The translations under genes were made by a program, and so were the position numbers. The notes beneath the pieces were generated by a model. The model saw only the letters and a program-made list of their open reading frames with translations. It was not told where the DNA came from and made no database searches. 64,000 nt of DNA, from NCBI GenBank assembly GCA_026770025.1, contig JAMXDE010000037.1, positions 62,001 through 126,000 on the forward strand, written 5' to 3'. Origin of the DNA: Craspedostauros australis. Lineage: Eukaryota; Bacillariophyta; Bacillariophyceae; Mastogloiales; Achnanthaceae. This document shows positions 16,431 to 49,022 of the stretch, in pieces; position 1 is the first letter of the stretch, and every line of letters starts with the position of its first letter.

Positions 16431-19400
16431 AAAATCGCAGTAGCACATCATGTCATGGCTACTTATCATGCTGAGGATTGATTGTGGCACCTCCCACTCC
16501 GTTCTGACGTCTCCAACAAAATCCATTTTCAACGGGGACACTACGAGCAAGCACGGGCAAGTACAACGACCCAAAGTTGTCACGTCAAATCCATGGTTTG
16601 ACTTCATATTGTGGCTAATTAGCACACTGCGGTTCGAATACGACACCCCCGACATCTTGATGATGAACACACCAACCATGGTTCACAACATGGACACTCA
16701 GTGGGGAAAGCAGTCACCACGGGCAAGTACGACAACCCGTAGATGTCACATCCAAACCGGGGTTTGACCTCATATTATGGGTGATTAGCACACGGCGGAT
16801 CGAATGTGACCCCTCCCACTTCGTAATTCCATCTACAAGACAATCCAGCTGTCATATGGTGGATATAGGGAGGTACGACAACCCAAAGTTGTCACATTCA
16901 AACCATGATTTGGCTTCATATTATGGCTAATTAGCACACTACGGATCTATTGCCACATCTACCACTTCGTAATGATGAACACACCAACCATGGTTCACAA
17001 CATGGACACTCAGTGGGGGGAGCAGTCACTACGGGCAAGTACGACAACCCATAGATGTCACATCACATCTGTGGTTTGACCTCATAGTATGGCTAATGAA
17101 CACACGGCAGATCGAATGTGACCCCTCTCACTTCGTAATTCCATCTACAAGACAATCCAGGTGTCATATGGTGGATATAGGGAGGTACGACAACCCAAAG
17201 TTGTTACATCAAATGCATGGCTTGACCTCATATTATGGCTAATTAGCGCACCGCGGATCGAATGCGACACCTCGCACTTCGTAATGATGAACACACTAAC
17301 CATGTTTCACAACATGGACACTCAGTGGGGAAAGCAGTCACTACGGGCAAGTACGACAACCCATAGATGTCACATCAAATGCATGGTTTGACCTCATAGT
17401 ATGGCTAATGAACACACCGCGGATCGAATGCGACCCCTCGCACTTCGTAATTCCATCTACAAGACAATCCAGCTGTCATATGGTGGCCACAGGGAGGTAG
17501 TACGACCCAAAGCTGTTACATTAAATGCATGGTTTAACCTCATATTATGTCTAATTATCACACTGCGGATCGAATACGACACCCCCGACATCTTGATGAT
17601 GAACACACTAACCATGGTTCACAACATGGACACTCAGTGGGGAAAGCAGTCACTACGGGCAAGTACGACAACCCGTAGATGTCACATCAAATGCATGGTT
17701 TGACCTCATAGTATGGCTAATGAACACACCGCGGATCGAATGTGACCCCTCGCACTTCGTAATTCCATCTACAAGACAATCCAGCTGTCATATGTTGGAT
17801 ATAGGGAGGTAGTACGACCCAAAGCTGTTACATTAAATGCATGGTTTTACTCCAGATTATGGCTAATTAGCGCACCGCGGATCGAATGCGACACCTCGCA
17901 CTTCGTAATGATGAACACACTAACCATGTTTCACAACATGGACACTCAGTGGGGAAAGCAGTCACCACGGGCAAGTACGACAACCCGTAGATGTCACATC
18001 AAATGCATGGTTTGACCTCATAGTATGGCTAATGAACACACCGCGGATCGAATGCGACCCCTCGCACTTCGTAATTCCATCTACAAGACAATCCAGCTGT
18101 CATATGGTGGCCACAGGGAGGTAGTACGACCCAAAGCTGTTACATTAAATGCATGGTTTAACCTCATATTATGTCTAATTATCACACTGCGGATCGAATA
18201 CGACACCCCCGACATCTTGATGATGAACACACTAACCATGGTTCACAACATGGACACTCAGTGGGGAAAGCAGTCACTACGGGCAAGTACGACAACCCGT
18301 AGATGTCACATCAAATGCATGGTTTGACCTCATAGTATGGCTAATGAACACACCGCGGATCGAATGTGACCCCTCGCACTTCGTAATTCCATCTACAAGA
18401 CAATCCAGCTGTCATATGTTGGATATAGGGAGGTACGACAACCCATAGCTGTCACACTAAATGCATGGTTTTACTCCAGATTATGGCTAATTAGCGCACC
18501 GCGGATCGAATGCGACACCTCGCACTTCGTAATGATGAACACACTAACCATGTTTCACAACATGGACACTCAGTGGGGAAAGCAGTCACCACGGGCAAGT
18601 ACGACAACCCGTAGATGTCACATCAAATGCATGGTTTGACCTCATAGTATGGCTAATGAACACACCGCGGATCGAATGCGACCCCTCGCACTTCGTAATT
18701 CCATCTACAAGACAATCCAGCTGTCATATGGTGGCCACAGGGAGGTAGTACGACCCAAAGCTGTTACATTAAATGCATGGTTTAACCTCATATTATGTCT
18801 AATTATCACACTGCGGATCGAATACGACACCCCCGACATCTTGATGATGAACACACTAACCATGGTTCACAACATGGACACTCAGTGGGGAAAGCAGTCA
18901 CTACGGGCAAGTACGACAACCCGTAGATGTCACATCAAATGCATGGTTTGACCTCATAGTATGGCTAATGAACACACCGCGGATCGAATGTGACCCCTCG
19001 CACTTCGTAATTCCATCTACAAGACAATCCAGCTGTCATATGTTGGATATAGGGAGGTACGACAACCCATAGCTGTCACACTAAATGCATGGTTTTACTC
19101 CAGATTATGGCTAATTAGCGCACCGCGGATCGAATGCGACACCTCGCACTTCGTAATGATGAACACACTAACCATGTTTCACAACATGGACACTCAGTGG
19201 GGAAAGCAGTCACCACGGGCAAGTACGACAACCCGTAGATGTCACATCAAATGCATGGTTTGACCTCATAGTATGGCTAATGAACACACCGCGGATCGAA
19301 TGCGACCCCTCGCACTTCGTAATTCCATCTACAAGACAATCCAGCTGTCATATGGTGGCCACAGGGAGGTAGTACGACCCAAAGCTGTTACATTAAATGC

Positions 19401-20940
19401 ATGGTTTTACTCCAGATTATGTCTAATTATCACACTGCGGATCGAATACGACACCCCCGACATCTTGATGATGAACACACTAACCATGGTTCACAACATG
19501 GACACTCAGTGGGGAAAGCAGTCACTACGGGCAAGTACGACAACCCGTAGATGTCACATCAAATGCATGGTTTGACCTCATAGTATGGCTAATGAACACA
19601 CCGCGGATCGAATGTGACCCCTCGCACTTCGTAATTCCATCTACAAGACAATCCAGCTGTCATATGTTGGATATAGGGAGGTACGACAACCCATAGCTGT
19701 CACACTAAATGCATGGTTTTACTCCAGATTATGGCTAATTAGCGCACCGCGGATCGAATGCGACACCTCGCACTTCGTAATGATGAACACACTAACCATG
19801 TTTCACAACATGGACACTCAGTGGGGAAAGCAGTCACCACGGGCAAGTACGACAACCCGTAGATGTCACATCAAATGCATGGTTTGACCTCATAGTATGG
19901 CTAATGAACACACCGCGGATCGAATGCGACCCCTCGCACTTCGTAATTCCATCTACAAGACAATCCAGCTGTCATATGTTGGATATAGGGAGGTAGTACG
20001 ACCCAAAGCTGTTACATTAAATGCATGGTTTTACTCCAGATTATGGCTAATTAGCGCACCGCGGATCGAATGCGACACCTCGCACTTCGTAATGATGAAC
20101 ACACTAACCATGTTTCACAACATGGACACTCAGTGGGGAAAGCAGTCACCACGGGCAAGTACGACAACCCGTAGATGTCACATCAAATGCATGGTTTGAC
20201 CTCATAGTATGGCTAATGAACACACCGCGGATCGAATGCGACCCCTCGCACTTCGTAATTCCATCTACAAGACAATCCAGCTGTCATATGTTGGATATAG
20301 GGAGGTACAACAACCCATAGCTGTTACACCAAATGCATGATTTGACTTCAGATTATGGCTAGTTATCACACCGCGGATCGATTGCGACACCTCCTTGTCC
20401 AATCTGACCTCTGCAACAAAATCCAGTTTTCAACGATGACTACCAGGAAGCATGAGCAAGTACGATGATCCCACATTGTCATCTAAAAAGTGCCATTTGC
20501 CCTCGGATTTTGGCTAATGGGCGCACTGCGGATCGATTGCCGCATCTCCCACTTCGTAATGAGGTCTACAACAAGGTCTGTCCAGCAATGTGGACACCAT
20601 GGGGCAAGCACCTGGGTAGTACGATGATCATGAATTGTCATTAACAAAGTGAGGTTTGCCTTCAGATTATGACTAAGTAGAGCACTGCGGATCGATTGCG
20701 ACACCTCCCACTCCAATCTGACATCTGTAACAAAATCCAGGTTTCAACGTGGACACCACTTGCGAGCACGATGACTGACAAGAGGCGTCCAAAAGTCGCG
20801 GTTGGACCTCGTACTATGGTTCATGAGCGCAGCGCGGATCGAATGCGGCATCTCCCACTCCTTAAAGACGTCTTGAAGGGATTGAAATATGGACCCTCAG
20901 TGGGGTCGCAACAACCAATGACAAATGGGACACAACTAGC
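16431..20940 (+). repeat. Satellite array, 312-bp monomer in 624-bp higher-order units
   Basis: A repeat starting ATGGCTAATGAACACACCGC recurs at 17401, 17713, 18025, 18649, 19273 and 19897, a spacing of 312 and 624 bp. Each 312-bp monomer is itself two related halves of about 146 and 166 bp. Alternate monomers differ (GGTGGCCACAGGG against GTTGGATATAGGG), giving a 624-bp higher-order unit. The central units (about 17400-20330) are nearly identical, while both edges (16431-17100 and 20350-20940) are strongly diverged, as expected when homogenisation acts in the centre. Subunits near 150-165 bp are nucleosome-sized. The position next to a telomere tract suggests subtelomeric origin. A 100-codon frame is carried by several units but shows no protein features. 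Confidence 0.95.
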
Positions 20941-28373: not shown

Positions 28374-29576
28374 CAAGGCACGGGAATTCCGTTGAAACTG
28401 ACACTCGATCGCACTTGACCAAGACGACCACTCTAGAAACGCAATCACGATTCGACTACAGCGACCAATATGCACAACCAGCAGCATAATATATAACGTC
28501 TATAACCGCTATTACTTTAAAATCCGAACACCAGGCCAATGGCAATTAAACGTTGAAACTATCACTGATCTGTTGAAACTAATGACGAAACGTTGAAACT
28601 AATGAAGAACCGTTGAAACTAATGAAGAAACGTTGAAACTAATGAAGAAACGTTGAAACTAATGAAGAAACGTTGAAACTAATGAAGAAACGTTGAAACT
28701 ATCGGCGAGGTGTTGAAATTATCGGCGAGGCGTTGAAACTAATAGAGAGCCGTTGAAAGCAGTCACGATTCATTCGTGAAGCCTTGTGACACTCCAGATG
28801 AAAAATGATGCACGTAATTTGATCGAGGCGATGTCATCACACAACAGGGCAACGGCGGAAAAGCCACCTTGTTGTGCCATTCGCTGTTTTCGCTCCCGCT
28901 GTCGCAAACGAGCCGCTCTGACAGCGCCCCCTTGCCCATCCACCAAGCTTTCCATGGCGGTTCCGTTGACATGCTTGGATCTGGAATTGGGTTGATGGTT
29001 GTTGCAATGCCGTACATGGCATTTGACGATCCTTGCAGAGTTTTGTTTTGTTTCCCCATTGTCGTGTTGTTGTGTTGGGTGTCTTGGTGACAGTCTTTTC
29101 TTGGCGTCAGGATGCGGACGAAAGCCGAAACCAGTGATGTCACTTGCCACGGATTGGCCCCGCAACCAACCGATGCTCTCAGGATCATCCAAACACGAGT
29201 CAATCACTACTGAGCAACTGTTGAAACTATCGCTGACTTGTTGAAACTAACACCGACTTGTTGAAACTAATCAAGAACCGTTGAAACTAACGCCGACTTG
29301 TTGAAACTAATCAAGAACCGTTGAAACTAACGCCGACTTGTTGAAACTAATCAAGAACCGTTGAAACTAACCCCGACTTGTTGAAACTAATAGAGAATCG
29401 TTGAAACTAGTTGGTCGCCAAATAACCGTCATAACGTATATTTAACGTTTGTATGACACCTTCATTGTTGTTCGTGTGGCCGAATCGGCACGAGCATGTG
29501 TCCCGTGACGCACGATTGCATCCGGGACTGCTGGTTTGTCTCTGAGTACCAGTTTCAACGAAATTCCCGTGCCTTG
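28374..29576. mobile_element. E1: non-autonomous DNA transposon with 20-bp subterminal arrays
   Basis: The 1203-bp element is flanked by TAG at 28371-28373 and 29577-29579. Its inverted repeats start CAAGGCACGGGAATT and run on to CGTTGAAACT, about 26 bp with one mismatch. Inside the left end are 11 units of a 20-bp repeat with core GTTGAAACT (28551-28760); inside the right end are 10 units (29221-29410) in the same direction. ACGTTA-type motifs flank the arrays (28490-28515 and 29421-29450). The centre (28761-29218) has short minus-strand frames with no recognised domain. It interrupts Copia-2 cleanly, which defines both borders. Ends, target duplication length and array design match E2 and E3, whose transposase could act on it in trans (inference). 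Confidence 0.9.
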
Positions 29577-31118: not shown

Positions 31119-33073
31119 TTAGATTCCAGGAATCCCGGCTATTTCCAATGATGTGAGGAGGCCAACCTGAGTTGGAAGCGGTCTAGTGAAATTGGTCCCT
31201 CCTAGACCAAGATTGGTGAGGGCTGTCAGCTGACCAATCTTGGATGGAAGTTGTCCAGTGAAGTCGGTGTATCCTAGATAAAGATAGACGAGCGCTGTCA
31301 GTAGACCAATCTCGGATGGAAGCTGTCCAGTGAAGTCGGTGTATCCCAGATAAAGATTGACGAGCGCTGTCAGTTGACCAATCTCCGATGGAAGCTGCCC
31401 AGTGAAGTCAGCATATCCCAAATCAAGAGAGGCGAGAGCTGTCAGCCGAGCAATCTCGGATGGAAGACGCCCAGCGAAGCCGTTGGAAGCCAAGTCAAGA
31501 TGTGTCAATTGTGTAAGTTGATACAATTCTGACGGAAACGCACCTCGCAGTGCCATGAACACTAGAGTTAGCTCTGATAGCATACTCAACATGACAATGT
31601 GACTGAAGATGATACCATCAATCTGTTCGCGAGTCCAGTAAGTCATTTTCATTGACCATTGCTCAAGGTGCGAGAGATGATACAGGGCCGGATCGAGCAT
31701 GCCCCGCATGTTTCTGTCACTCAAAGCTACTTCTACCACATGACCATCATCGCATGTCACACCACGAGAGGAAGAGTGCCAGTTGCAAAGGTCAGCATCT
31801 GATAGAAAGCCCATCTTGCGGATCCAATTGGCTCCATCGAGTGAAAAGTACATGCTCACCACTGCATAGTACTCTAATAGACGTGTGGCATTGGCTTGTG
31901 CATCTTCCGCGATCATTGATGTGAGATCTGGGTGGTTGCTGTTTGCCATCCAGTCCAGCGTTCGATGCGCAGTACTGGTTGGGCTGGCGAGTATGGCTGC
32001 ATCGATGAAGGTAGGCTCTTCTTGGAGTGTGGGCAGGAGCACCTCCCAAATCGTGAAGAAAGCATTCGATTGATCGAAGCTGTCCGTTGGGTTCGACGAG
32101 AGTAGATCACTCGGTATATGCGTGAGTGTGTGAGTTGGGTTCGACGAGGGTAGATCACTCGGTGTATCCGTAGGTGTGTGGGTTGGACTTTGTGATGGTC
32201 GATCACTCGGTATGTGCGTCGGTGTGAGGGTTGGGTTCGGCGAGGGTAGATCACTCGGTATCTCCGTCGGTGTGTGGGTTGGATTTTGTGATGGTCGATC
32301 ACTCGCTATATCCGTCGGTGTGTGGGTTGGGTTCGACGAGGGTAGATCACTCGGTATCTCCGTCGGTGTGTGGGTTGGATTTTGTGATGGCCGATCACGG
32401 GGCCATTTGTGGTGGGCTGATTACTACTGCTGCCGTCTATGTTGCTGTTGCTGCTGTTGCTTCTGCTGGTCTCGTTACTTAGGAGGAACACTACGCCTGC
32501 TGCAATGGCACCGGCTGCACCGACAATGAGTAACACCACAGTAACAACACCTTTCCAGCTCCATCCTGGGACGACCTCTGCAACTGGAATATAGGTTTGA
32601 TTGCTCGTGCTCCCATCAGGGTTGCATTGGGCACTTGGTGTTTGAGTTCGTCACAGTCGTAAAGCCCTTTGCAATTCCCTTTGCGTTTCAGCTTGCATGT
32701 GGGCTTGCATGTCTTCTTCAGACGCTACTGGCGCAGAGGGGACAGGGATTGGTGGCGGAAGTTTAGCAGACGCATCATATGTTGTCTCGTCGCCCATTGT
32801 TGGGTATGAATGTGGCTGCGGCCGCGGCTGCGACTGTGTAGGTGGGTTTGCGTCGGTCGCACCAGCGACGCAGATGTGAATGGCGCCTGCGGAACTTGGA
32901 CTCTCTCCCCCAAGGTCGTAATTGGTGGTGGTCACTGGATGATGTTGTTGATGTATTGTGAGGGCGAGGAAATTAGATGTTCCAAACGATTTCAGGCATG
33001 TCAACAAGATCAATGTTGGTCGAGGCAGAGAGAGCAACTTCGCTTCTCTACAGCAACAATCCCTTGATCGCAC
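31119..33073 (-). pseudogene. LRR copy B: paralogue of LRR copy A, frame-disrupted
   Basis: This is a direct-orientation paralogue of the gene at 4.3-7.2 kb. In gene order it has an N-terminal cytoplasmic region (frame 33073-32651; MGDETTYDASAKLPP) and a WSWKGVVTVVLLIVGAAGAIAAGVVF membrane segment (about 32560-32490). A PSDLPS/NPTHTPT stalk (about 32390-32090) and a FFTIWEVLLPTLQEEP domain follow, then at least five plant-type LRR units (LTALVYLYLGYTDFTGQLPSEIG type) to 31119. It has no LTR between WSWKGVV and the membrane segment. However, the N-terminal part, the membrane segment and the stalk/LRR part lie in different frames, with about two shifts near 32650 and 32400. The 307-codon frame from Met 32042 encodes only the pre-LRR domain and LRRs, without signal or anchor. 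It is probably a pseudogene, unless introns at those places restore it; I see no convincing splice pairs. Confidence 0.75.
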
Positions 33074-33978
33074 TCACCAGCGAGGGCGTGGTTGTCATAG
33101 GAGCAACGATACAACTCTCCAATTGTCGCAACTCCTCACAGAGTACACCCTTCGATATTTGGCCCAAAGAGGTGATACATTGGGGCAGCTGCCCCACGTC
33201 TGTCATTTGCGTCCGTGGCGATGATAGTGGTCAGTTGAGGTGTCAACCATTGGTGGTGATACCCTTTCGTACCGTTTCGTACGCATTGGTGCTGTATCAT
33301 CCCCCATCGCACACGCTGTACTCGTAGAAATCAAATCTCCGATTGTTTGTACTCGTACCACGCACTCTGACACTCATCCTTCTACTTTCGCAGATGTTCT
33401 TTATCATGGGACACGGACCGAACAGCCAAAGCGGTAATCCTCATCCGCTCCTATGATCGCATTCTATGATCGCATTCTATGATCGCATTCTCTGATCGCA
33501 TTCTCTGATCGCATTCTCTGATCGCATTCTCTGATCGCATTCTATGATCGCATTCTATGATCGCATTCTATGATCGCATTCTATGATCGCATTCTATGAT
33601 CGCATTCTATGATCGCATTCTATGATCGCATTCTTTGATCGCAGGCTATGATCGCAGTCTAGGTCGCACCCTTGGAAGGCGATGGGTGGAATGCGAACTA
33701 CCAACCATACATCGTGGAATGAATCTTCAATGCGAACAGAGAAACAGATGGCAAGGCAGATGCATCCCCTCCTATGATCGCATGCTTGATCGCATGCTTG
33801 ATCGCATGCTTGATCGCATGCTTGATCGCATGCTTGATCGCATACTTGATCGCATACTTGATCGCATGCTTGATCGCATGCTTGATCGCACCCTCGGAAG
33901 GCGATGGGTCAAGCACGAGTAGCAGAAGAGGTCGGTCGGAGGGCAATGCCATGCGAGTACACACCTCTCTACTGTACG
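33074..33978. repeat. Duplicated upstream region of LRR copy B with 13- and 12-bp minisatellites
   Basis: The region matches 7868-8338 upstream of LRR copy A but is expanded by two tandem arrays. About 33452-33650 holds some 15 copies of a 13-bp unit (TATGATCGCATTC, with a CTGATCGCATTCT variant). About 33772-33895 holds some ten copies of GCTTGATCGCAT (12 bp). Copy A has only one or two such units (8212-8245), so the arrays grew after the duplication. Homology to copy A ends near 33978, which marks the duplication border. Confidence 0.85.
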
Positions 33979-38028: not shown

Positions 38029-38198
38029 CAGCAAGACACGGGAATTTCGACGAAACGATCGAAGAAACGTCCAAGAATGTCAATGCTGACGTGGCATTTG
38101 TGCACCAATGTATTATTCTGATTAGTCAAACTCCGTTGACACCATTGAGGACGTTAAATATTAGGTAATAACCGTTATTTCGGTTATTCATCGAAACA

Positions 38199-38390
38199 GT
38201 ACTTTCACCTAATCCAGAGTACTTTCGTCGAGTCTGGAGTACTTTCACCTAATCCTAATTACTTTCGTCGAGTTTGGAGTACTTTCACCTACTCTCGAGT
38301 ACTTTCGTCGAGTCTGGAGTACTTTCACCCAGTCCTGAGTACTTTCGTCGAGTTTTGAGTACTTTCGTCGAGTCTGGAGTACTTTCACCT
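38199..38390 (+). repeat. E2 left subterminal array, ten 20-bp units
   Basis: Units begin ACTTTCGTCGAG or ACTTTCACCTA at 38201 and every 20 bp to 38381, with no register slip. The core TTTCGTCGA resembles the inner part of the E2 inverted repeat (TTTCGACGAAAC). Confidence 0.9.
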
Positions 38391-40531
38391 TTTTCTCTGC
38401 TCTTCTCGGCCGGTTGTGCGACATGTGTTGAGACCACAATTAACGGTACAGGGACTAAGCGGGAGCCGCGGTAAACCATGTAACTAATATTTCCACTACT
38501 TCTTCCCGAGTGCTGTCGGCTCACGAACACGTCATCATCAGACTTGTTTTTGTCTTCATGGTGTCGCAAGAATACGTCACCATATGACGTCATTTCTCCA
38601 ATTTGGTCGATGACATACCTCCGTCTCGGTATCAGGCCTTCGTTCAATTTGCCTCGTTTCTGTTCGGGTAGATGCGGGCTTCGTTAGTCGACTACAGGCT
38701 TGCTTGTCGCGATCTACGAGTCGTCATTTTGAGACAGCCCTGCTGCACATTATGATCGCAATACAGCATAATACTCCGTACTGAATTAGGCTACATGACT
38801 ACCTACCGCCACTACTATCAAGGTGCTCGATGTTACAGGGCTTGCCGCATTCTACTTGCGTTCATTCACCGCTCTTGTATGCATCAAATTAGTGAATGCT
38901 GTGCATTGTCTGATGGAACTTGCTTGTTTTGTTCCAACTTGTTGTCATCAACAGTCTTCATGATTCACCTTACCAATTCCTCACTGTGCAGCTTCAGACA
39001 AGAGCCCTTTGCGTACTTCTTGTTACAAGTCTCATCTAGATATTGGAATCGACGGTACACAAGAAGAGGAAAGACTTCTGTGCAGACAAAAGGATTCAGA
39101 TCATGGTGACAGTCTTGCTGCCGCAAGTTGATGGTTGTTGCAAGGACAGGGTACTCAATCTTCTGGCAGCGCAATAAAATGTCCATTGCACCACAGTCCA
39201 GATCATGATGATGGATGTGAGAAAAGCGGTGGCCCCTACTTCCAATTGTCTTGGAGGTTGCTGCCTCATGCTGGTGCTTGTGGTTGATCCCAGAAGTGGG
39301 GCCAAGAGGACATGAAAGAGAGCCAATGGCACCTTAATGGCAACCATGCTGCAACTCCTTTGTACAGCTGCTGCTGCCTTTGGTGTGCCGCCAACTATGC
39401 TATTTCACTTGCAAATTGCAACAACGCATTGTATTGGAAGCATAATTGGACTCACAGAGAAGCACAAGGCAGATTGTGTACAATTCTGTATCAATCACAT
39501 CGAAGATGTTGGGTTGTTTCAGAGTTTGGATGATGTTGTCCACGTATATCTGCATTGTGCTTTATTCCGCACAGCTCTCTCCCTCGTGTTCTTGCGTAGT
39601 TGTGTGTTTCAATCATATCCTGTGCCAACTCGAACAATGAAATTGGTGTGTGTTACAAGCGAATAGCTCAACAAGAAACGAAATTGAGGATGCATGAAAG
39701 CATAGTACCATAGACAAAGTATGACAAAAGAACAACAGTACTGTGAGATGGCTACTTGCCTGAGTCAGTTGAACCTAAAGATGCAACGATCCTATCCAAT
39801 GCATGCAGAACACAGGAATGCAGGAGCAACAGCATGGACATGAACACAGGTCAGAGTGTAAGCTCACAACTCTTAAGTTTGTAATAGCATTCAAGTTCCA
39901 ACAGAGTTTACAGTGGATGCCTCCTTCTTGATCTGATCAATTGCTGAAGGATGTGTTCTTCCTACAATACTGCCAATTCTCAAGTCTAACAACGTAGATG
40001 AGAAGTGGTTCTTCATTCACTTGACCAAATGTAGGCCATGGTGTGTCATGGGTGAGGACCCTCGAATCCAATATGGAAACACAGCCATGACCACAATCCA
40101 AATGATGGTCTATCTTGCAGGAGTGCTGAAGTTGCAGCATGCAAGGACAAGATGATTGCATTGAATTCCAGGAGTGCCATGCAGAACCATGCTAGGTACA
40201 ATAGCGGCTTGCAGGACAGCAATGGCAAATGCTCAAAGAGGGTGATGAGTGGAGCTTCCACCAGAACACAGGGATGTGCACATGGTACATTCCAAGACAA
40301 GGCGTTTGCAGGTCAAGTATCATGTATGCCAGTGTCGTCAGAGATGCGGTGGAGGTGAACATGGCGAGGGTCTGGCTCTAGCAAGGCATGGAGGCGATCG
40401 GTGGCGACGCCGACAAAACCACGCAACAAAGGGCGGCAGGCGAGCTCACTGACGCGCAGAGGGTGCTCACCATGAAGCTCACGATGCAGGAGGCGGCTGT
40501 GGGAACACAGATGGCTCAGTAGAAGGCAAGG
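38391..40531. other. E2 internal DNA without recognised gene
   Basis: About 2.1 kb inside E2. Frames of 66-120 codons on both strands (for example 39337-39666 plus and 39096-39347 minus) have no domain I recognise. A decayed accessory or transposase gene could lie here, but I cannot show it. Confidence 0.35.
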
Positions 40532-41047
40532 ATGAGTGATAGCTGCCCCAGGCATGGCGAGACGGAAACTCACGGCCACCTCTGGGTCTGCTGCTCGCTG
40601 GAATCAATGGTGCTATGGAAATTGCGGCGGAAACGGCTGAAGATCACGATGCAGAAGATGTTGACTCATCCTGCCATTGCAAAAATACTGTTGAGCAATG
40701 TCAAGCAAGTGTCAAGAGGGCTGGGACCTGTTGGACACATACACGCAAACCTGATTGAGGCAAAGCTGATGGATGATCAACAAGAGGGAGGATGGGATTG
40801 GCTGGTTGAGGGCATGGTCAAGGTGTCATGGACAGAACTACAGGAGCAGTACCATACGCAAATTGGTTGTAGGTTGTCCACAGAAAAGTGGGTGGCACGG
40901 ATCATACACAAGCTCTGGAAGGTGGTGTGGGACCATTGGTACCAATGCAATCAAGCAATGCATTGCACTGATGAGGGGCCGGAGGCTCGCATGAGGCAGA
41001 TGGTGCAGGACTATGACTTGGCCCTGGAAGACTTGGCGCGACTATGA
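40532..41047 (+). CDS. W-rich C-terminal fragment of a diatom-type element protein
   Basis: The frame has 171 codons: HGETETHGHLWVCC, then IHANLIEAK, GGWDWLVEGMVKVSWTELQEQYHTQIGCRLSTEKWVARIIHKLWKVVWDHWYQCNQAMH. The spacing of Trp, the LW..VWDHW..CNQAMH ending and the preceding Cys/His pair recall a C-terminal domain seen in many uncharacterised diatom proteins, some linked to LINE-type elements. That resemblance is from memory and unverified. No start context or upstream partner is evident, so this is likely a fragment carried in E2. Function is unknown. Confidence 0.4.
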   Translation: MSDSCPRHGETETHGHLWVCCSLESMVLWKLRRKRLKITMQKMLTHPAIAKILLSNVKQVSRGLGPVGHIHANLIEAKLMDDQQEGGWDWLVEGMVKVSWTELQEQYHTQIGCRLSTEKWVARIIHKLWKVVWDHWYQCNQAMHCTDEGPEARMRQMVQDYDLALEDLARL

Positions 41048-42079
41048 GGGGCAAGCACAGCCATGTGGGCCCAACTACAGCTGTCAGGCAAAGGAGCTAC
41101 AGACATGGGAACCGTCGCAATATGGATTGGACAAGTGCACCAAGTGCTACAGATACCAGATGATCAAGTTCCCATTGAAGTCCAAACCTGGCTCCGCTGA
41201 AGCCAGTAGCTGGCCATTGTGAATGAGGCTGTCCCTGGATTTCCTTTCATGAGTACACAAACACATACAACTTACATACTACTGGAGAGCCGCAAAGAAT
41301 GGAGAGCAGGATAGGTGGAGGCCGTTGTGATCCCCTGATCATGCATACATATTGACTTGATAGCCGTTCTGCCTCATGCCCTACATGAAATCAAAGCAGA
41401 CAATGTAAAAGTGCCTATGGCACAAGCTGGGCACACACTAATCAGCTTCATCCATAAGTTCCATATAAATGATAGGTACAATAGGCAGCAGCACAATGAG
41501 GTACAGCAGTCAAGACAATTCACACATGGATTTCAGATGAATTGGATGGAGACCATGAAGTAGGATGAATTGTGACAGAATACAGACCAGCACTAGGCCA
41601 TGAATTTTGTCACTGACATTGGCGCAACCGTGAGTACGAATGTGTGGAGAGACAGGAGGGAGAGCAGAGAGGAGAGCAAGGGAGCAACAACTAGCAGGCT
41701 CTCCATGATGAAGCACGATGAAATGACAAGGATGGCACGAGCAGGAAGCAAACACCCTCATATACACCTTTGACGATTCTGGTATGTTGCAGCATGGTGC
41801 ATTGTCGTTCAGTCGAGCCTGACAAAACATGGAATGTGCAACGAGCAGCGCGTTGTGTCGATCAATGCGCCTATGTAATTTAGTGTCCTTTGCCACAGTG
41901 GGTAGGCATCGGAAAATAGTGCAGAATCCGACTCACTATCGAATATAGAAAGGCTGTGTGGGATGAGTTGGATGCTCTATGTGCATGGTATCACATTGGA
42001 TATGCTGTACCATATCAAGGTACTTTGGAAATGGTTTGCGCGCAAGAGGTCAAAGAGAAGCCAGAGCACGCGCACATTT
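41048..42079. other. E2 internal DNA left of E3, no recognised gene
   Basis: About 1 kb. Short frames only (for example 41510-41896 minus, 128 codons), with no recognised domain. Confidence 0.4.
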
Positions 42080-42249
42080 CAGCAAGACACGGGAATTTCG
42101 CCGAAAGTGCTTTGAAACCACGTACCCAAGACTTCCACCAGTCCGGTCCCGTTCGCAACGATGTCGAAACTCAAAAGAGTCGGATGAGGACACCAGGTGA
42201 GTGTGTTAGGACGTTAAATAGACGTTACAAACGTTATTTGAGATATTGC

Positions 42250-42590
42250 TACTTTCATCGAAGTGGTATTACTTTCATCGAAGTGGTATTACTTTCATCG
42301 AAGTGGTATTACTTTCATCGAAGTGGTATTACTTTCATCGAAGTGGTATTACTTTCATCGAAGTGGTATTACTTTCATCGAAGTGGTATTACTTTCATCA
42401 AAGTGGTATTACTTTCATCGAAGTGGTATTACTTTCATCGAAGTGGTATTACTTTCATCGAAGTGGTATTACTTTCATCGAAGTGCTGTTACTTTCATCG
42501 AAGTGCTATTACTTTCATCGAAGTGCTATTACTTTCATCGAATGGTTGCGACCATCATTGGCACGTGCGTACTTTCATCGAAATACTGTT
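42250..42590 (+). repeat. E3 left subterminal array, 15+1 units of 20 bp
   Basis: GGTATTACTTTCATCGAAGT repeats from 42251 to 42540 with almost no variation, and one further ACTTTCATCGAA unit lies at 42571. The near-identity of units implies recent homogenisation or selection. Frames through the array are simple-repeat translation. Confidence 0.95.
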
Positions 42591-42919
42591 GGTGACGGTC
42601 GGATGACAGACGGAGACGCAGCAATTTCCCGTCTCCACAGCGTCTGCAGAGACGACCAGAGCATCCACAAAAATCTCACATCTCGCACATCTCGCACACA
42701 CACACAACAACACGCATCCGTATCCTCTCCTGATTGTCACAAGTTCACTGTAATCCCATGCTGCAGGCCAAGCTCTCTTTTCAGCTGTGCTACAATTATG
42801 TATGCAACTCTCTAAGATACTACAGTTAGAATGTCCACTGTCAATCAGTACAATCAGTACAAGGAAGCTGCTGAATCTTTGGATTGGAGATACTATTCAA
42901 TGCAGCTATTGTCATTACT

Positions 42920-43396
42920 CTATCGCTGTGTTTCACGGAGATCATTTTTACGTTGTTGCCAATACAGCGACTCGTATTTTGATCGCTTTGCTGCATGGAA
43001 ATGCTGTCTGAATTGCTTCATCGGAAACTCCTGATAGCATTGTCTCTTTTGATACAACTCCAATGGTTTGAGAGAATTCAAGGATGAATCCTTGAAGTCC
43101 TTTCGAAGCATGCTTTGTGCCTCAGAGCCATCCCATCTGAGTTTTGCAGCTGGCTTTGTGGAAATTGTCATCTTTCGGAAAGCAGCCAGACAATCCTCTG
43201 CCTCTGCAGCGTCATCCTTGTGCTGTTTCCACTTTTTGCGAAGGCGGTTCAGATTGCTGCGGAAGTTGGTGTAGTTCACCTCTGAGAATTCTGCATGGCT
43301 TTCGTAGATGGCCTTTGGCTTCATCTCCTCGGTGATTGTTCCCTCCTTCAATTCCTTCTCCAGAATCTTCTTGGCATCTGCCCATTTGAACGGCAT
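42920..43396 (-). CDS. Small protein with duplicated SANT-like DNA-binding-type domain (E3)
   Basis: 158 residues from Met 43396 (MPFKWADAKKILEKELKEG); the frame extends to a Met at 43573 through Gln/His-rich sequence that looks like untranslated repeat. Two homologous domains are visible. Residues about 4-58 run FKWADAKKILEKELKEG...KPKAIYESHAEFSEVNYTNFRSNLNRLRKKW. Residues about 85-145 run LRWDGSEAQSMLRKDFKD...LKPLELYQKRQCYQEFPMKQFRQHFHAAKRSK. Each has a Trp near the start, three predicted helices and a basic third helix, as in SANT/Myb-like DNA-binding folds. A similar W..S.A..LL motif family is widespread in diatom genomes. PIF/Harbinger elements need a Myb-like partner for nuclear import and end binding, so that is the likely role (inference). 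Confidence 0.6.
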   Translation of the reverse strand: MPFKWADAKKILEKELKEGTITEEMKPKAIYESHAEFSEVNYTNFRSNLNRLRKKWKQHKDDAAEAEDCLAAFRKMTISTKPAAKLRWDGSEAQSMLRKDFKDSSLNSLKPLELYQKRQCYQEFPMKQFRQHFHAAKRSKYESLYWQQRKNDLRETQR

Positions 43397-44069
43397 TTTG
43401 GGCCCTGGCTCAACACTGCCATGCAGCTGCTGTTCTTGAGAATGCTGTTGCAAGGGGCTTCTGCACACAGCTTCGATGATGGTGTGTGGCCAAAGATATG
43501 CCAATGCTGTTGCTGTCTGTGGGAATGCTTCCGCAAGGGGATTCTGTGCACACCTTCGGTGATGATGTGACAATCAAGATGATCCAGATTTTTGTCTTTT
43601 CGTGATGCCAACATTGGAATTGGTAATGCCGTTGCCATTGCCGTTGGGGTTGTGGGACAACCGCACCATCCATATGGGATTGTTGCCGTTGCTGCTGATA
43701 TTGATGCTGGGTTTCCAGCACAGTGACAGGACGAGTCTCTGCTGCTTTGCCATGTTCGATTCTGCTCGATCAGAGCTTGGCCTGCAGCTGTCAGTATGGC
43801 TGTCGTTATTGCTGTTGCTGTTGCTGGTGCCGCGAAAGCTGTTGGTTGCCGTTGCTTTCAGCCTTGTCTTGCTGTTATTCTGCAGTCAATTGCTGTATTG
43901 ATTGATTGATGAAAGGAATGTTTCCTTGCTGTTGAAAGCTGTCTGTCTTCTCTTCAAGTGGTGTGATGGTGGCTTTGCTCGTCTTCCACTGTCGGGGTTT
44001 GTGTGGGATTTGTTGTGTGTGTTTCTGTGCGCCCCTTGCGCGCACCTGAGCGGATGACGCGAATCGACG
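43397..44069. other. E3 spacer between divergent genes
   Basis: About 670 bp between the minus-strand SANT-like gene and the plus-strand gene of unknown function. It is GTTGCTG/TGCCGTTGC-rich (43500-43850) and may hold a bidirectional promoter. No specific element is identified. Confidence 0.35.
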
Positions 44070-45941
44070 TTGTCGACCCACAGAAATACCGACACTGATG
44101 TCATCTGCCACGCGGCGGGTCGTGTGGGTTGGCCGAAATCAAAAACTGTGGGGATCACCACGACGCTCTGTGGCCACAAAAAAGAACACAACATGCGCGA
44201 TCCTACCAATGACGCCACTTCGCTTACTCCAGCGCGTTCCCACCGTGGAGCAACTCCCAACCGCTCAAATTCAAAATCAATAGGACCGGCAGCCGACATC
44301 GTCATCATTGACTTCATACTTGGAGCAACACGCCATGACAAGTTCTGGCTGCACTGCGACCTACATGCGCACATCCTTGGCGGGAGTGGTACTGCAAAGC
44401 GATGTGCTTCCCGACAGCGCAAGCGCTATCTCGAGACGCACCTTGACAAGGAAGAACTCCAAGCATTGCGAGAATCGCATCAGGAGGCATTGAGTGGAGA
44501 GGGCCAAGGCACATCACAAGCATCATCAACAATTCCAGCAACGCCAGCAACACCAGCGCCAACCAAACCCCTTGCAACATCCACCATAAAACAGAAGGTT
44601 CCAACCATCGTAACACCTTCCACATCAAAGTCGACACTCTCACCACAACGACAACGCAAGTTGCTTTTCTCCACTGAAGCAGCAATGGGCAACGACAACG
44701 ACACCATCATCACCACTACTACCACCGAGAGCGACGCTGGCGAGCGCTATCTCATCGACCTTGATCATCCATTCAAGCATGTCGACAACATCATGATCTA
44801 CCGGATGGAAGGCGTTGTCCTTGATGGCCGTTCCTTCTCTTGCCTCGTCATCCGCAAGCCGTTCGTGGACAAGGACGATATCCACAATATCAAGGCATCC
44901 ATCTGTGAGGATGGAACTTGCATCAAGATCGAGGAGCCAGCCATCCCCTCACTGATGCTCGAGCCCAGCACAGATGAGATGTTCGTTCAGAAGAAAGGAA
45001 CCATGGATGGCAATCTTGAGCGAGAGAAGATGCTCTTCCACACACTGGTTAACCGTGAAACCGCCAAAGGAGTGGGCTCCAAGTTCACATACTTTCATTG
45101 CCCAAAAGGCATGACTCTCAGTGCCAATTTCTTTGGAAACGAATCTGACTGCCTCACGAAGACCTATTGTCCAACACCCAAAATCCTGGTGCACAAGGCA
45201 AGCGGTCGACAGATCAAGATCCCCACGAACATGGTGTGCTGGAGAGTTGCCATTGCTGGCTTTCATGGGAGAGTTGGATTGGTTGGCACCAACAGCCCTG
45301 ATGTCGATGATGCATTCTTCCAGATGCTGTCGAGCACCGGTGAGTCGCCGCCCCCATGATTCTTCGAACAACTTCTTTTGCAGATGCCTGGCCATGTTGC
45401 AACACCTAACCACGATACTTTAGCAACAGCAGTAACTCACATCATATATCATCTATTCTCTCCTCTTGTTTTTGATTGCTCTATTTATGGTGCAGCAAAC
45501 ATCACCATCAACCCCAGTGAGTCCCTGGATATGGACATCGAAGACTCCCCATCACCATCTCCAATCCTGTCCAACAACCAGGTCAACCTACCACAGCCAT
45601 TTGCGGGTGTCCCAAGCATGGGACCTGAAGAGGTCGGACGCAACCCAGAACCTGAGGGGGTGCCAAGCAACCTGGACCCCGGAAACTTCGAGGAAGGGAG
45701 GTCCCCATTGGATACTCCTCTTCCTGATGACGTGGGGAGAGACAACCAGGGTTTCCCCATTGTTGCAACATCGAAGTTGGAAGGGCCTGAGACGAAGGAA
45801 CTTGTGGTGAGCACGAGCCCAACTGTTCATTATCAACTTGTTGCCTGCACTGTGCCGCCAGCCTCTGATGCTGTCATGGGCGATGAAGGCCAGCACTTGA
45901 AGCGAGAGGCAGCCGCAGCCCACCAAGAAGCTCAAGCCTGA
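44070..45941 (+). CDS. E3 accessory protein of unknown function, two exons
   Basis: Exon 1 is 44070-45339, intron 45340-45495 (156 bp; donor CACCG|GTGAGT, acceptor GGTGCAG|CA), exon 2 45496-45941. The phase-1 junction reads ..SSTANITINPSES.. and gives 571 residues. A downstream Met at 44193 (MRDPTNDAT) is an alternative start. The N-terminus is basic and disordered. Residues about 110-145 are charged and helical (SRQRKRYLETHLDKEELQALRESHQ). Residues about 226-423 form a compact globular domain (YLIDLDHPFKHVDNIMIYRMEGVV...FTYFHCPKGMTLSANFFGNESDCLTKTYCP...VCWRVAIAGFHGRVGL) with several conserved-looking Cys and Trp. The exon 2 tail is Pro/Ser/Glu-rich. I do not recognise the fold. Its place between the SANT-like and transposase genes, inside the inverted repeats, implies a role in transposition or regulation, but no function can be assigned. 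Confidence 0.65.
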
Positions 45942-46113
45942 TCATGATGCAGCGGATTGCAAGTTTCCCGCTTCAGACCAGGTCAAGAAGTCTCTGCCAA
46001 TGGCAAGTCTGAATGTTTCTGGCATTGACGACTACGATCCTCTTGACGACTACTTTGGATAGATACAAATGGATGGAGAGAAGCAACTGTTGTAATAGTC
46101 GGAAATTTATCAT

Positions 46114-47923
46114 TTATATCTCAAATATTGGATGCCCATTGTCCAATTCGTATTGAATCAAAATGCAACATGATTCAAATACACTTTGGTGCTTATCGAG
46201 TTGGTTGCGATAGTCATGCACAAGTGCTTTGAAGCTTTTTATTCTCCCATTGAAGCTCTCATGGCGAGCTCTCGCTCTGTTCTTGAACTTCTTGACAGCA
46301 GCCGAATCCATTGGATTTGGTGCACTGATCGTGGGTTCATTGCGATACCCACCATCAGCAATCACCATGCTCCCTGGTGGCAGTTTGGACCTCAGACCAT
46401 TGGGCTTTCGGTACATTGCAAGATCGGATGTGGAGGCTGGGAAGGGACCATTGATCCATACCAACTTGCTTTCGGCCAACGATATGCCAAGCTCGTACGT
46501 GAACCCAGCAGAGTGGGATTTATGGGAGTACCACTTCGTCCCTGGGTCCATCCTTGGCTCATAGATCTTGACATGCACTCCATCCACACTGATCAGGAAG
46601 TGCTTGTCGTCGCCAGATAGCTCGAGGCTGTTAGGGGGCCAGACAACCTGGGAGAGGACGAGCCAAAGAAATGAAAGATATGCAAGTATGAGGGCTTTGT
46701 CAGAAGAGGCAATGAATGAAGGTGAGAGCAATGTGTGCACACTGACTTACCTTCTCGGGGAGCAATGCTTGAATTGCTGGTATGTACGACCAAATGAGAG
46801 ATCGGATGGTTTTCTCATCCAAATGCCAACGACCGGCCATTGCATGCTCTGTGCTGTACTGTTTGAGCCAATTCAGGACAACAAAGACTTCGTATGGGCG
46901 TGGCTGCTTCACTTTGTGCTCTTGCTTGCTATTGGTTAAATCAACGAATAGACATCCAAAGCTCTCCGGACTCAAGCCATACATCGCAGAAAAGCGATCT
47001 GTTCTGGTTCGTTCTGCCATCCTTTTTTGCCGGAAACCAGCATATCTCAGGCCAAGCTCCAGAATCTCATCGCGAGTCAAGAAGGCAACATCAGCTGCAT
47101 CATTGGTGGTCTCATTGCCGGCTTCATTGTGTCTGGCTTCACAGGTGTCTCGGGTGGCCAGTTGTCTTGCTTGATTGCTTTGGGTGGTACCTTGAATGGT
47201 TGGTTGCCGTGCAGACTCACCCTGCTGTTGTGAGATTGATCTGCTGCTTCGGCTGGTACCTCGAATGGTTGGTTGGTGTGCAGACTCACTCTGCTGATGT
47301 GGGGTTGGTGTGCTGCTTCGGCTGGTACCTCGAATGGTTGGTTGGTGTGCAGGTTTGCTCTCCTGATGTGAGATTGATCTGCTGCTTCGGCTGGGACCTC
47401 GAATGGTTGGTTGCCATGCAGACTCACCCTGCTGATGTGAGATTGATCTGCTGCTTCGGCTGGGACCTCGAATGGTTGGTTGGTGTGCAGACTTGCCCTG
47501 CTGATGCGCAGTTGGTACGCTGCTTCGGCTGGGACCTCGAATGGTTGGTTGCCGTGCAGACTCACCCTGCTGTTGTGAGATTGATCTGCTGCTTCGGCTG
47601 GTACCTCGAATGGTTGGTTGGTGTGCAGACTCACTCTGCTGATGTGGGGTTGGTGCGCTGCTTCGGCTGGTACCTCGAATGGTTGGTTGGTGTGCAGGTT
47701 TGCTCTCTTGATGTGAGATTGATCTGCTGCTTTGGTTGGGACCTCGAATGGTTGGTTGTTGCACAGACTCGCCCTGCTGATGTGCGGTTGGTGTGCTGCT
47801 TCGGCTGGTACCTCGAATGGTTCGTTGGTGTGCAGACTCGCCCTGCTGATGTGAGATTGATCCGCTGCTTCGGCTGGCCCCTCGAATGATCAGTTGCCTC
47901 CCAGGTTTGTGCCTTTGATACAT
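46114..47923 (-). CDS. DDE transposase, PIF/Harbinger-like (DDE_Tnp_4 type), two exons (E3)
   Basis: Exon 1 is 47923-46751, intron 46648-46750 (103 bp; donor GAGAAG|GTAAGT, acceptor CTCCCAG|GTT), exon 2 46647-46114. The phase-0 junction (..LLPEK|VVWPPNS..) gives 568 residues. Residues about 12-245 are ten tandem 23-residue repeats (RGTSRSS...HQQGESAHQPT), basic and Ser/Gln-rich. Residues about 275-391 form a helical N-terminal domain (DRFSAMYGLSPESFGCLF...MAGRWHLDEKTIRSLIWSYIPAIQ). The catalytic core is in exon 2: D413 (ISVDGVHV), D489 (MVIADGGY) and E521 (RARHESFNGRIK), with the family-typical GPFPASTSDLAMYR between. All three catalytic residues are present. It would cut and rejoin the element ends in the nucleus, with the SANT-like protein as a likely partner. 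The start at 47923 is the first Met in frame; the repeat run makes the true N-terminus uncertain. Confidence 0.85.
47200..47890 (-). repeat. 69-bp coding minisatellite in the transposase N-terminus
   Basis: Ten copies of a 69-bp unit lie in frame, alternating among a few variants (SRSISHQQGESAHQPT, STPTPHQQSESAHQPT, SRSISHQESKPAHQPT). The recurrence of the same variant order suggests a duplicated block of several units. The opposite strand is also open across it, so long antisense frames occur. Confidence 0.85.
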
Positions 47924-48280
47924 GGTTGGTTGACTGCTTGTATTGTTGACTGATGAGTTGGTCTGCGCTATGTTGGCAATGTTCTGTCAATGGTTGTGTT
48001 GCTAGCTCTGTAGGGTCTCTGCTGCCTTTGCTTCCTTTTTTGGTGAATGTCGGTATGCCAATCGGTTGGCTGGTTGCTGAGTTCTTCCTCTGTGATGTGA
48101 TCGATCTCATGTTGCCGTTGATCAAAAAGACCTGCTTTGTTGTGTCGAGCGAGCCGGATTGTTTCTGAGTCTTGTTTTTTGTCATTGGCCTTGTTGCAAC
48201 TGCATCTTTGTTGAGACACGAGTCGTTCATTGAATCGTGGTGACCAACGTTGGATGGTGCTCGCTGTCATTGGAGTCGCA

Positions 48281-48400
48281 ATACTGTCGTCGGACTGGTG
48301 GCACTTTCATCGAACTGGTGGCACTTTCATCGAACTGGTCGTACTTTCATCGAACTGGTGGTACTTTCATCGAACTGGTGGTACTTTCATCGAACTTGTT
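48281..48400 (+). repeat. E3 right subterminal array, five plus one 20-bp units
   Basis: GTACTTTCATCGAACTGGTG repeats every 20 bp from 48303 to 48400, preceded by a degenerate unit at 48283. The direction matches the left array rather than mirroring it. Confidence 0.9.
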
Positions 48401-48726
48401 GTCATTGGAAGGTGTTCGGAATTCAAACTAAAAGACGTTATATACGTTAAAATACAAATTCAATGGTGGTCCATTGAGTCCAACCACAGTTCGTTTGGAC
48501 CGTTGGGGGGATTAGTCGATGTGGTCGATCGCAAACGGCATCGAGTTTCAGCGAAATTCCCGTGTCTTGCAGCCGACGTCATCATGTCCAAGAATGTGAC
48601 AACCAATCAGACTTGAGGTGGACACCATTATTTTAGCATATATTCAACTACCGCGCCTCCCAATACACGGAACAGAATTCCAACGAACCGTGAGGAATCA
48701 AGGCGCAGCAACCTCAACGAACGGGA

Positions 48727-48840
48727 GTACTTTCGTCGAGTTTTGAGTACCTTCACCTACTCTGGAGTACTTTCGTCGAGTCTGGAGTACTTTCACCTAG
48801 TCCTAAGTACTTTCACCTACTCTCGAGTACTTTCACCTAT
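48727..48840 (+). repeat. E2 right subterminal array, six 20-bp units
   Basis: GTACTTTCGTCGAGT and GTACTTTCACCTA units start at 48727 and every 20 bp to 48827. They share the consensus and direction of the E2 left array at 38201-38390, which links the two distant ends as one element. Confidence 0.88.
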
Positions 48841-49022
48841 TTTGTTTTTGAACCAGGATTTGTCTTGATTTGAATTTACAGACGTTAATTAACGTTATAA
48901 CTACTGCATGCAAGTATTCGGTTTAGTCAAACAGGCAATCCGAACAGGACAATTGGCAGAGAAGTCGTACCGACTCACGACTCAGCCTGATCGTGTTTCG
49001 TCGGTTTTCCCGTGTCTTGCAG

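Follow-up and report, generated by a model that had tools for sequence, protein, structure and literature searches.

We analysed a window of 64,000 nucleotides on contig C35 of the Craspedostauros australis assembly (74.8 Mb, 90 contigs), and this window contains a three-gene element that we call E3 (Table 1). We are confident that E3 is a copy of a PHIS (Harbinger/IS5-type) transposon, that its family carries a set of three genes, and that the family inserts at CWG target sites (W, A or T). The evidence comes from the ends of E3 and the site into which it inserted, from the copies with the same ends elsewhere in the assembly, and from a DDE transposase that is accompanied by the same two other genes wherever the third gene is full length.

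Ends, insertion site and copies of the family

The initial annotation described matching inverted repeats of 24 bp, and this was confirmed: the left repeat and the reverse complement of the right one agree at 23 of 24 positions, and CAG flanks both. E3 splits an outer element of family B (38032-49019), a multi-copy relative of about 4.5 kb without E3. The end motif of E3 is also found facing inward at 38032 and 49019, the bounds of this outer element. In the alignment with L017, a 4,494-bp element elsewhere in the assembly, the two aligned parts overlap by 3 bp. The empty site, with a single CAG, was found at seven of eight outer-family loci (L010, L012, L017, L019, L020, L021, and L025); a junction search at the eighth, L013, was without a match. 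L012 and L013 belong together, as opposite ends of a single 13-kb span on C8. Because of the 3-bp overlap and the unoccupied sites with one CAG, we conclude that E3 inserted with duplication of a 3-bp CAG. No E3-type gene was found in the relatives of the outer element; L017 has one open frame of at least 150 residues (218 residues).

The assembly was searched for the end motif, with the same motif read backwards as a control. The 13-bp motif CAAGACACGGGAA occurs 54 times versus 2 for the control, and the G variant with CWG, CWGCAAGGCACGGGAA, occurs 52 times versus none. These counts, together with facing pairs on many contigs, rule out a chance repeat or an assembly artefact. When the search was relaxed to 16 bp with 2 mismatches, it gave 243 matches versus 70 for the control and served only to view facing ends.

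Both ends were read for 27 pairs. All 27 have identical 3-bp flanks (19 CAG, 7 CTG, and 1 TAG). The duplication is CWG in 26 of the 27, CTG being a CAG site on the other strand. At the flanking positions, no single base is present in more than 13 of the 27. Not counted among the 27 are the single ends L029, L031, L033, L036, L039, and L040, for which the stretch fetched contains no facing counterpart, and the C8 pair spanning 13 kb, which was read as two pieces and is likewise flanked by CAG and CAG. Among the single ends, L036, which is next to AGG, probably matches the motif by chance. The flanks of L024 (C49) recur at C1 (L029) and C49 (L039); some copies therefore lie in duplicated DNA, and the 27 pairs are not all independent.

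The duplication was initially given as CAG or TAG rather than TWA. The CAG and the departure from TWA (0 of 27) hold, whereas the TAG belongs to a separate element at 28374-29576. The latter is a relative of 1,203 bp in which no gene was seen; it has the ends CAAGGCACGGGAATTCCGTTGAAACTG, a TAG/TAG duplication, and arrays of the 20-bp unit GTTGAAACTAA at both ends. By eye, it interrupts an apparent copia-type pol gene.

The strict 20-bp subterminal arrays reported for E3 are present at both of its ends. Both arrays could be counted in 26 of the 27 elements (in L024, one end yielded no count), and in all 26 they run in the same direction despite the inverted terminal repeats. For the outer element, the arrays were additionally examined in its left and right parts by themselves. 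The consensus unit varies by family: TACTTTCATCGAAgTGgTat in A, TACTTTCacCtAgTcttgAg in B, TACTTTCATTGAAaCgttAT in C, and TACTTTCAACGTTTGTtaAG in D, which is represented by one element. Families A-D all retain the start TACTTTC, and A and C share the core TACTTTCAWYGAA. Six elements were compared in the region that separates the end from the array, and those other than E3 have an AACGTT-rich block there, similar to the ACGTTA block of E3. L014, a gene-less derivative of 438 bp, has kept the ends, both arrays, and little else, which argues that the arrays serve transposition itself.

Table 1. Coordinates of E3, its parts, and related features. Positions are those of the window unless a contig is given.
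Feature	Position	Strand	Remarks
E3 transposon	42083..48569		Based on ends, duplications, arrays, and three genes
Left target-site duplication	42080..42082	+	CAG
Right target-site duplication	48570..48572	+	CAG
Left terminal inverted repeat	42083..42106	+	24 bp, CAAGACACGGGAATTTCGCCGAAA
Right terminal inverted repeat	48546..48569	-	Reverse complement CAAGACACGGGAATTTCGCTGAAA
Subterminal block of repeated ACGTTA	42211..42236	+	ACGTTAAATAGACGTTACAAACGTTA
Left subterminal array	42250..42546	+	20-bp unit TACTTTCATCGAAGTGGTAT, 14.9 copies, 97% match
Right subterminal array	48282..48396	+	20-bp unit TACTTTCATCGAACTGGTGG, 5.8 copies, 92% match, orientation of the left array
Outer family B element, left part	38032..42082	+	Split by E3; L017 1-4047, 97.6%
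Outer family B element, right part	48570..49019	+	L017 4045-4494, 97.6%
Partner gene	42920..43399	-	Stop 42920-42922; candidate start 43394-43396, open frame extends upstream
G3 exon 1	44193..45339	+	
G3 exon 2	45496..45941	+	Frameshift close to its 3' end compared with L023
Transposase exon 2	46114..46647	-	Whole catalytic triad; stop codon included
Transposase intron	46648..46750	-	GT...AG
Transposase exon 1	46751..47986	-	Open frame; start codon unsettled, first ATG 47921-47923
Minisatellite in transposase exon 1	47176..47888	-	In frame, 69 bp, 10.3 copies, 23-residue repeats
Decayed G3 copy	C35:277860-278969		Three pieces
G3 remnant	C43:2545-3567		

The transposase, its partner, and the third gene

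The predicted gene models of E3 and its relatives were read from the sequence. The spliced DDE transposase with all three catalytic residues stood up to inspection. It matches the Pfam family DDE_Tnp_4 (E 3.4e-14; 53.2 bits versus a cut-off of 24.8; profile positions 1-157 of 158), and the complete triad is D-75-D-31-E (codons 46582-46584, 46354-46356, and 46258-46260 on the minus strand). Among the 120 homologues listed are three from diatoms (Pseudo-nitzschia arenysensis, Cylindrotheca fusiformis, and a Bacillariaceae metagenome-assembled genome); these are not the closest, and transposons can pass from one host to another. The transposase had no match in the PDB at E≤1 and only a weak IS5-family hit, far below the cut-off, in NCBIfam; among viral contigs, 105 stretches matched the pattern and none was confirmed.

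The partner of E3 consists of two tandem homologous halves (local score 75 versus a shuffle mean of 27; none of 2000 shuffles reached 75). A low-confidence model from a single sequence predicts three helices per half (mean predicted local distance difference test score, pLDDT, 55.6). From its position and the superfamily, the partner may be a Myb-like DNA-binding protein.

Searches of the assembly with the E3 proteins gave at least 150 transposase hits (the best 150 of 357 candidates; 13 are at least 81% identical), 39 hits for the partner, and 16 for the third gene, G3, which is spliced as first described. Of the 16, 12 are full-length loci, three are fragments of a single decayed copy, and one is a remnant. 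All 12 full-length loci (on C1, C5, C7, C11, C18, C22, C33, C34, C35 (E3), C45, C60, and C68) lie between facing ends, CWG followed by CAAGRCACGGGAA, together with a transposase and a partner; these elements were found through G3. The ends were read letter by letter for E3 and for the loci on C22 and C45, and by pattern search only for the other nine. The decayed copy and the remnant have no such ends in the stretches read. The initial annotation thus withstood the refutation tests that it had proposed, on further copies with these ends and on the genes occurring without them. The gene order is partner-G3-transposase in all 12, with G3 on the opposite strand. The long spans on C1 (15 kb) and C11 (23 kb) presumably hold other insertions. 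L032, on C22, has open frames for all three genes. The partner hit on C7 contains a TGA; the TAG in the transposase hits on C7 and C33 seems to lie at the intron border, because exon 2 is open in both.

Judged by the ratio of nonsynonymous to synonymous substitution rates (dN/dS; Nei-Gojobori method, rough for several distant pairs with dS above 1), the three genes are under purifying selection. The ratio is 0.02-0.095 for transposase exon 2 in seven of ten pairs (two are saturated and one has no changes) and 0-0.32 for G3 in 12 pairs. For the partner, it is 0.08-0.10 in the four informative pairs out of eight (E3-L023, E3-L032, E3-L047, and L032-L047), 0 and 0.60 in two low-change pairs, and undefined in two. 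Across the 4,095 bp read, the loci on C5 and C60, which are different contigs, have an identity of 99.90%, and this near-identity would fit recent movement. E3 is older, with a dS of about 0.18 between its G3 and that of L023.

With the G3 of L053 as query, weak matches (E 0.012-0.037, per genome) were obtained at all five loci of a second transposase clade, which is 52% identical to E3. Each match lies in an open frame of 374-380 residues that is flanked by the transposase and partner hits of its locus and runs on the opposite strand; at the same loci a further weak, co-linear match (E 0.08-0.16) falls in a frame of equal length. The five loci are mutually related and thus are not five independent tests. 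Because these matches have the same place and orientation in a clade 52% identical to E3, G3 is probably old in the transposon lineage. Beyond the first clade, the decayed copy, and the remnant, this query had no other hit with E<0.05, and three more, on C37, C26, and C49 (E 0.19-0.73), are at chance level.

DNA transposons can capture genes, and G3 might be a host gene carried as a passenger that has no part in transposition. In agreement with this, no relative of G3 was found in the proteins of other organisms. An alignment query against a collection of 5.8 billion proteins, with the best 7,996 candidates by shared words scored, gave none at E≤0.01, and residues 180-380 gave 138 candidates, none at E≤1; the transposase, as a positive control, found 220 proteins in this collection. 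Among viral contigs, 54 stretches matched the G3 pattern and none was confirmed, and the exon 2 frame had only a chance hit in Pfam (E 0.19). We nevertheless consider a passenger very improbable. Each of the 12 full-length G3 copies is accompanied by the same two genes, without a change of order or orientation, and the dN/dS of G3 is far below 1. Outside such elements, G3 matches are limited to the two decayed ones, the five weak ones, and the three at chance level.

The assembly also has at least 150 DDE_Tnp_4 matches (the best 150 of 227 candidates), and several Harbinger-type lineages seem to coexist in it. One group, with frames of about 444 residues, outscores the E3 clade and has no nearby partner hit listed. 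In other transposase lineages (40-45% identical), a weak match to the partner lies some 3 kb from the transposase, which leaves room for a further gene between the two (for example C1:2402023/2405505, C6:342110/345383, and C17:732843/729173).

Placement among PHIS transposons and the proposed machinery

Six PHIS groups are distinguished by their duplications: TWA in PIF/Harbinger, AT in ISL2EU, none in Spy, ANT in Pangu, CWG in NuwaI, and TNA within CTNAG in NuwaII (Han et al. 2015, PMC4482050). Most NuwaI candidates have two genes, the second with a Myb/SANT domain; their terminal inverted repeats (TIRs) usually begin with GGG and measure 12-61 bp, and the elements reported for this group come from 16 animal genomes (PMC4482050). 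Pangu is known from one heterokont, so PHIS elements are not new to stramenopiles, and the function of accessory genes in PHIS elements is stated to be unknown (PMC4482050). A typical Harbinger has two open reading frames (ORFs) (PMC9179366). Among the open-licence PMC papers listed, Repbase not being included, neither a PHIS element of CWG type from a non-animal host nor a third gene came to light; the "third ORF" of PMC7998251 was rejected as a precedent, as it concerns retrotransposons.

The best placement of E3 is as a PHIS variant that is NuwaI-like in its target choice, and we set it apart from NuwaI provisionally. The initial annotation suggested an undescribed lineage; the family is indeed coherent and multi-copy, but CWG duplications were already known in NuwaI (PMC4482050). 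The two share this duplication, a DDE transposase with a second gene, and a TIR length within 12-61 bp, and E3 could be a NuwaI transposon that reached a diatom and gained G3 as a late local addition. We find this rather unlikely. The ends of the E3 family begin with CAAGACACGGG (CAAG), not GGG, and the CWG preference may have arisen independently. G3 is seemingly present, from the weak matches, in two DDE clades that are 52% identical and so is probably not late. NuwaI is reported only from animals and mostly with two genes (PMC4482050), whereas the E3 family has a third gene and 20-bp subterminal arrays and is from a diatom. The second gene favours neither placement: that of NuwaI has a Myb/SANT domain, and the E3 partner has two helix-rich repeats that may be Myb-like, with no Pfam Myb/SANT match in four members. 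Because the E3 family differs in the first bases of its ends, in having a third gene and arrays, and apparently in its host, we do not call it a member of NuwaI.

The other groups differ in their duplications. PIF/Harbinger elements also combine DDE_Tnp_4 with a separate accessory protein and have short gene-less derivatives (PMC4482050, PMC2836001); these are moved in trans, as those of the E3 family would be by inference. However, their TWA duplication occurs at none of the 27 pairs, and they mostly have two genes rather than three. ISL2EU has AT and YqaJ, whereas the E3 family has a 3-bp CWG and no Pfam match to YqaJ in its other genes. The patterns of Pangu, NuwaII, and Spy do not fit pairs that are CAG, CTG, and TAG only.

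Cut-and-paste chemistry would be expected of E3 from its superfamily, and we infer DNA binding by the partner, binding at the arrays, and the role of G3 as follows. The DDE transposase would excise the DNA between two CAAGRCACGGGAA ends and insert it into a CWG site with a stagger of 3 bp, thereby producing CAG or CTG duplications. The partner, with its two tandem helix-rich repeats, would be the usual accessory DNA-binding protein. G3, in the opposite orientation between the other two genes, would be a fixed and selected part of the machinery, and the 20-bp arrays would be cis-acting, multi-copy binding sites for one accessory protein during end assembly. For these roles of the arrays and G3, our confidence is about evenly balanced. 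A more far-reaching version has a separate stramenopile-algal PHIS lineage with three obligatory proteins, in which G3 reads the polar arrays and thereby gives the element a built-in left and right, its TIRs being near-symmetric; this we hold tentatively, at somewhat less than even confidence.

The VANDAL elements of Arabidopsis, whose Mutator-like transposase we take to belong to a superfamily different from that of E3, offer another role for G3. They likewise have a third gene, VANC, and same-orientation tandem motif arrays, and the two systems possibly work alike (PMC5735166). G3 would then be a sequence-specific anti-silencing protein that binds the same-orientation arrays and lifts host repression. 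The single direction of the arrays in all 26 elements and a unit that differs by family and keeps its start are consistent with this, as is the lesser conservation of G3 (identity to E3 among full-length copies down to 47%, versus 81% for the transposase). The comparison of G3 with VANC is by analogy. Unlike in VANDAL (PMC5735166), the arrays of the E3 family are subterminal, and even gene-less derivatives, as short as 438 bp, retain them although they contain no gene from which repression could be lifted. We therefore favour G3 as an end-assembly factor and regard an anti-silencing role as unlikely.

Several observations weigh against our identification of E3 or against the machinery proposed. 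One of the 27 pairs is TAG, not CWG, and L031, an unpaired but true-looking end, has CAA adjacent. E3 was thought possibly intact; this was not upheld, as its G3 is frame-shifted near 45930 relative to L023 and has lost its C-terminal tail, a basic PKKxK-like stretch followed by an acidic end. The tail is kept in similar form in the nine other copies read (L023, L032, L045-L048, L050, L053, and L054). L023, the closest sister of E3, has an in-frame stop in the transposase repeat region. The comparison of the C5 and C60 loci covers the 4,095 bp read, and their near-identity could also be due to duplication by other means. The partner pair L050-L052, with few changes, is the one with a dN/dS of 0.60, and in several distant pairs dS is above 1 or undefined. 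The partner was initially called SANT-like; the gene is present, but Pfam recognises no SANT/Myb domain in it and gives only hits at chance level, below the cut-off (best E 0.049). Four partner members had no Pfam SANT/Myb match at E≤10, with HMMER filters dropping most weak matches, and a Foldseek search with the low-confidence model gave 23 matches at E≤10, none at E≤0.001. G3 exon 1 had no Pfam family at E≤1, G3 had chance-level hits only in NCBIfam (E 0.055) and a best E of 0.3 in the PDB, and its domain fold, modelled from a single sequence, was unusable (mean pLDDT 36.6). Binding of the arrays could be by either accessory protein, and the E3 family is known from its DNA sequence alone.

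Neighbouring repeats and significance

The window contains further repeats. A 312-bp unit in 12.3 tandem copies (16561-20394; 91% match) is satellite-like. The 72-bp tandem repeats at 4311-4543 and 31173-31501 look, by eye, as if they code for leucine-rich repeats. Two adjoining minisatellites at 33451-33890, one with a 13-bp unit in 16.2 copies and the other with a 12-bp unit in 9.7 copies, have related units.

The presence of the E3 family in a diatom extends CWG-targeting Harbinger-type elements beyond animals. To a superfamily described with one or two genes, the family contributes a third component, which is conserved and for which no relatives have been identified. With near-identical copies, presumed cis-acting sites in the form of countable arrays, and gene-less mini-elements as short as 438 bp, the function of PHIS accessory genes becomes testable.

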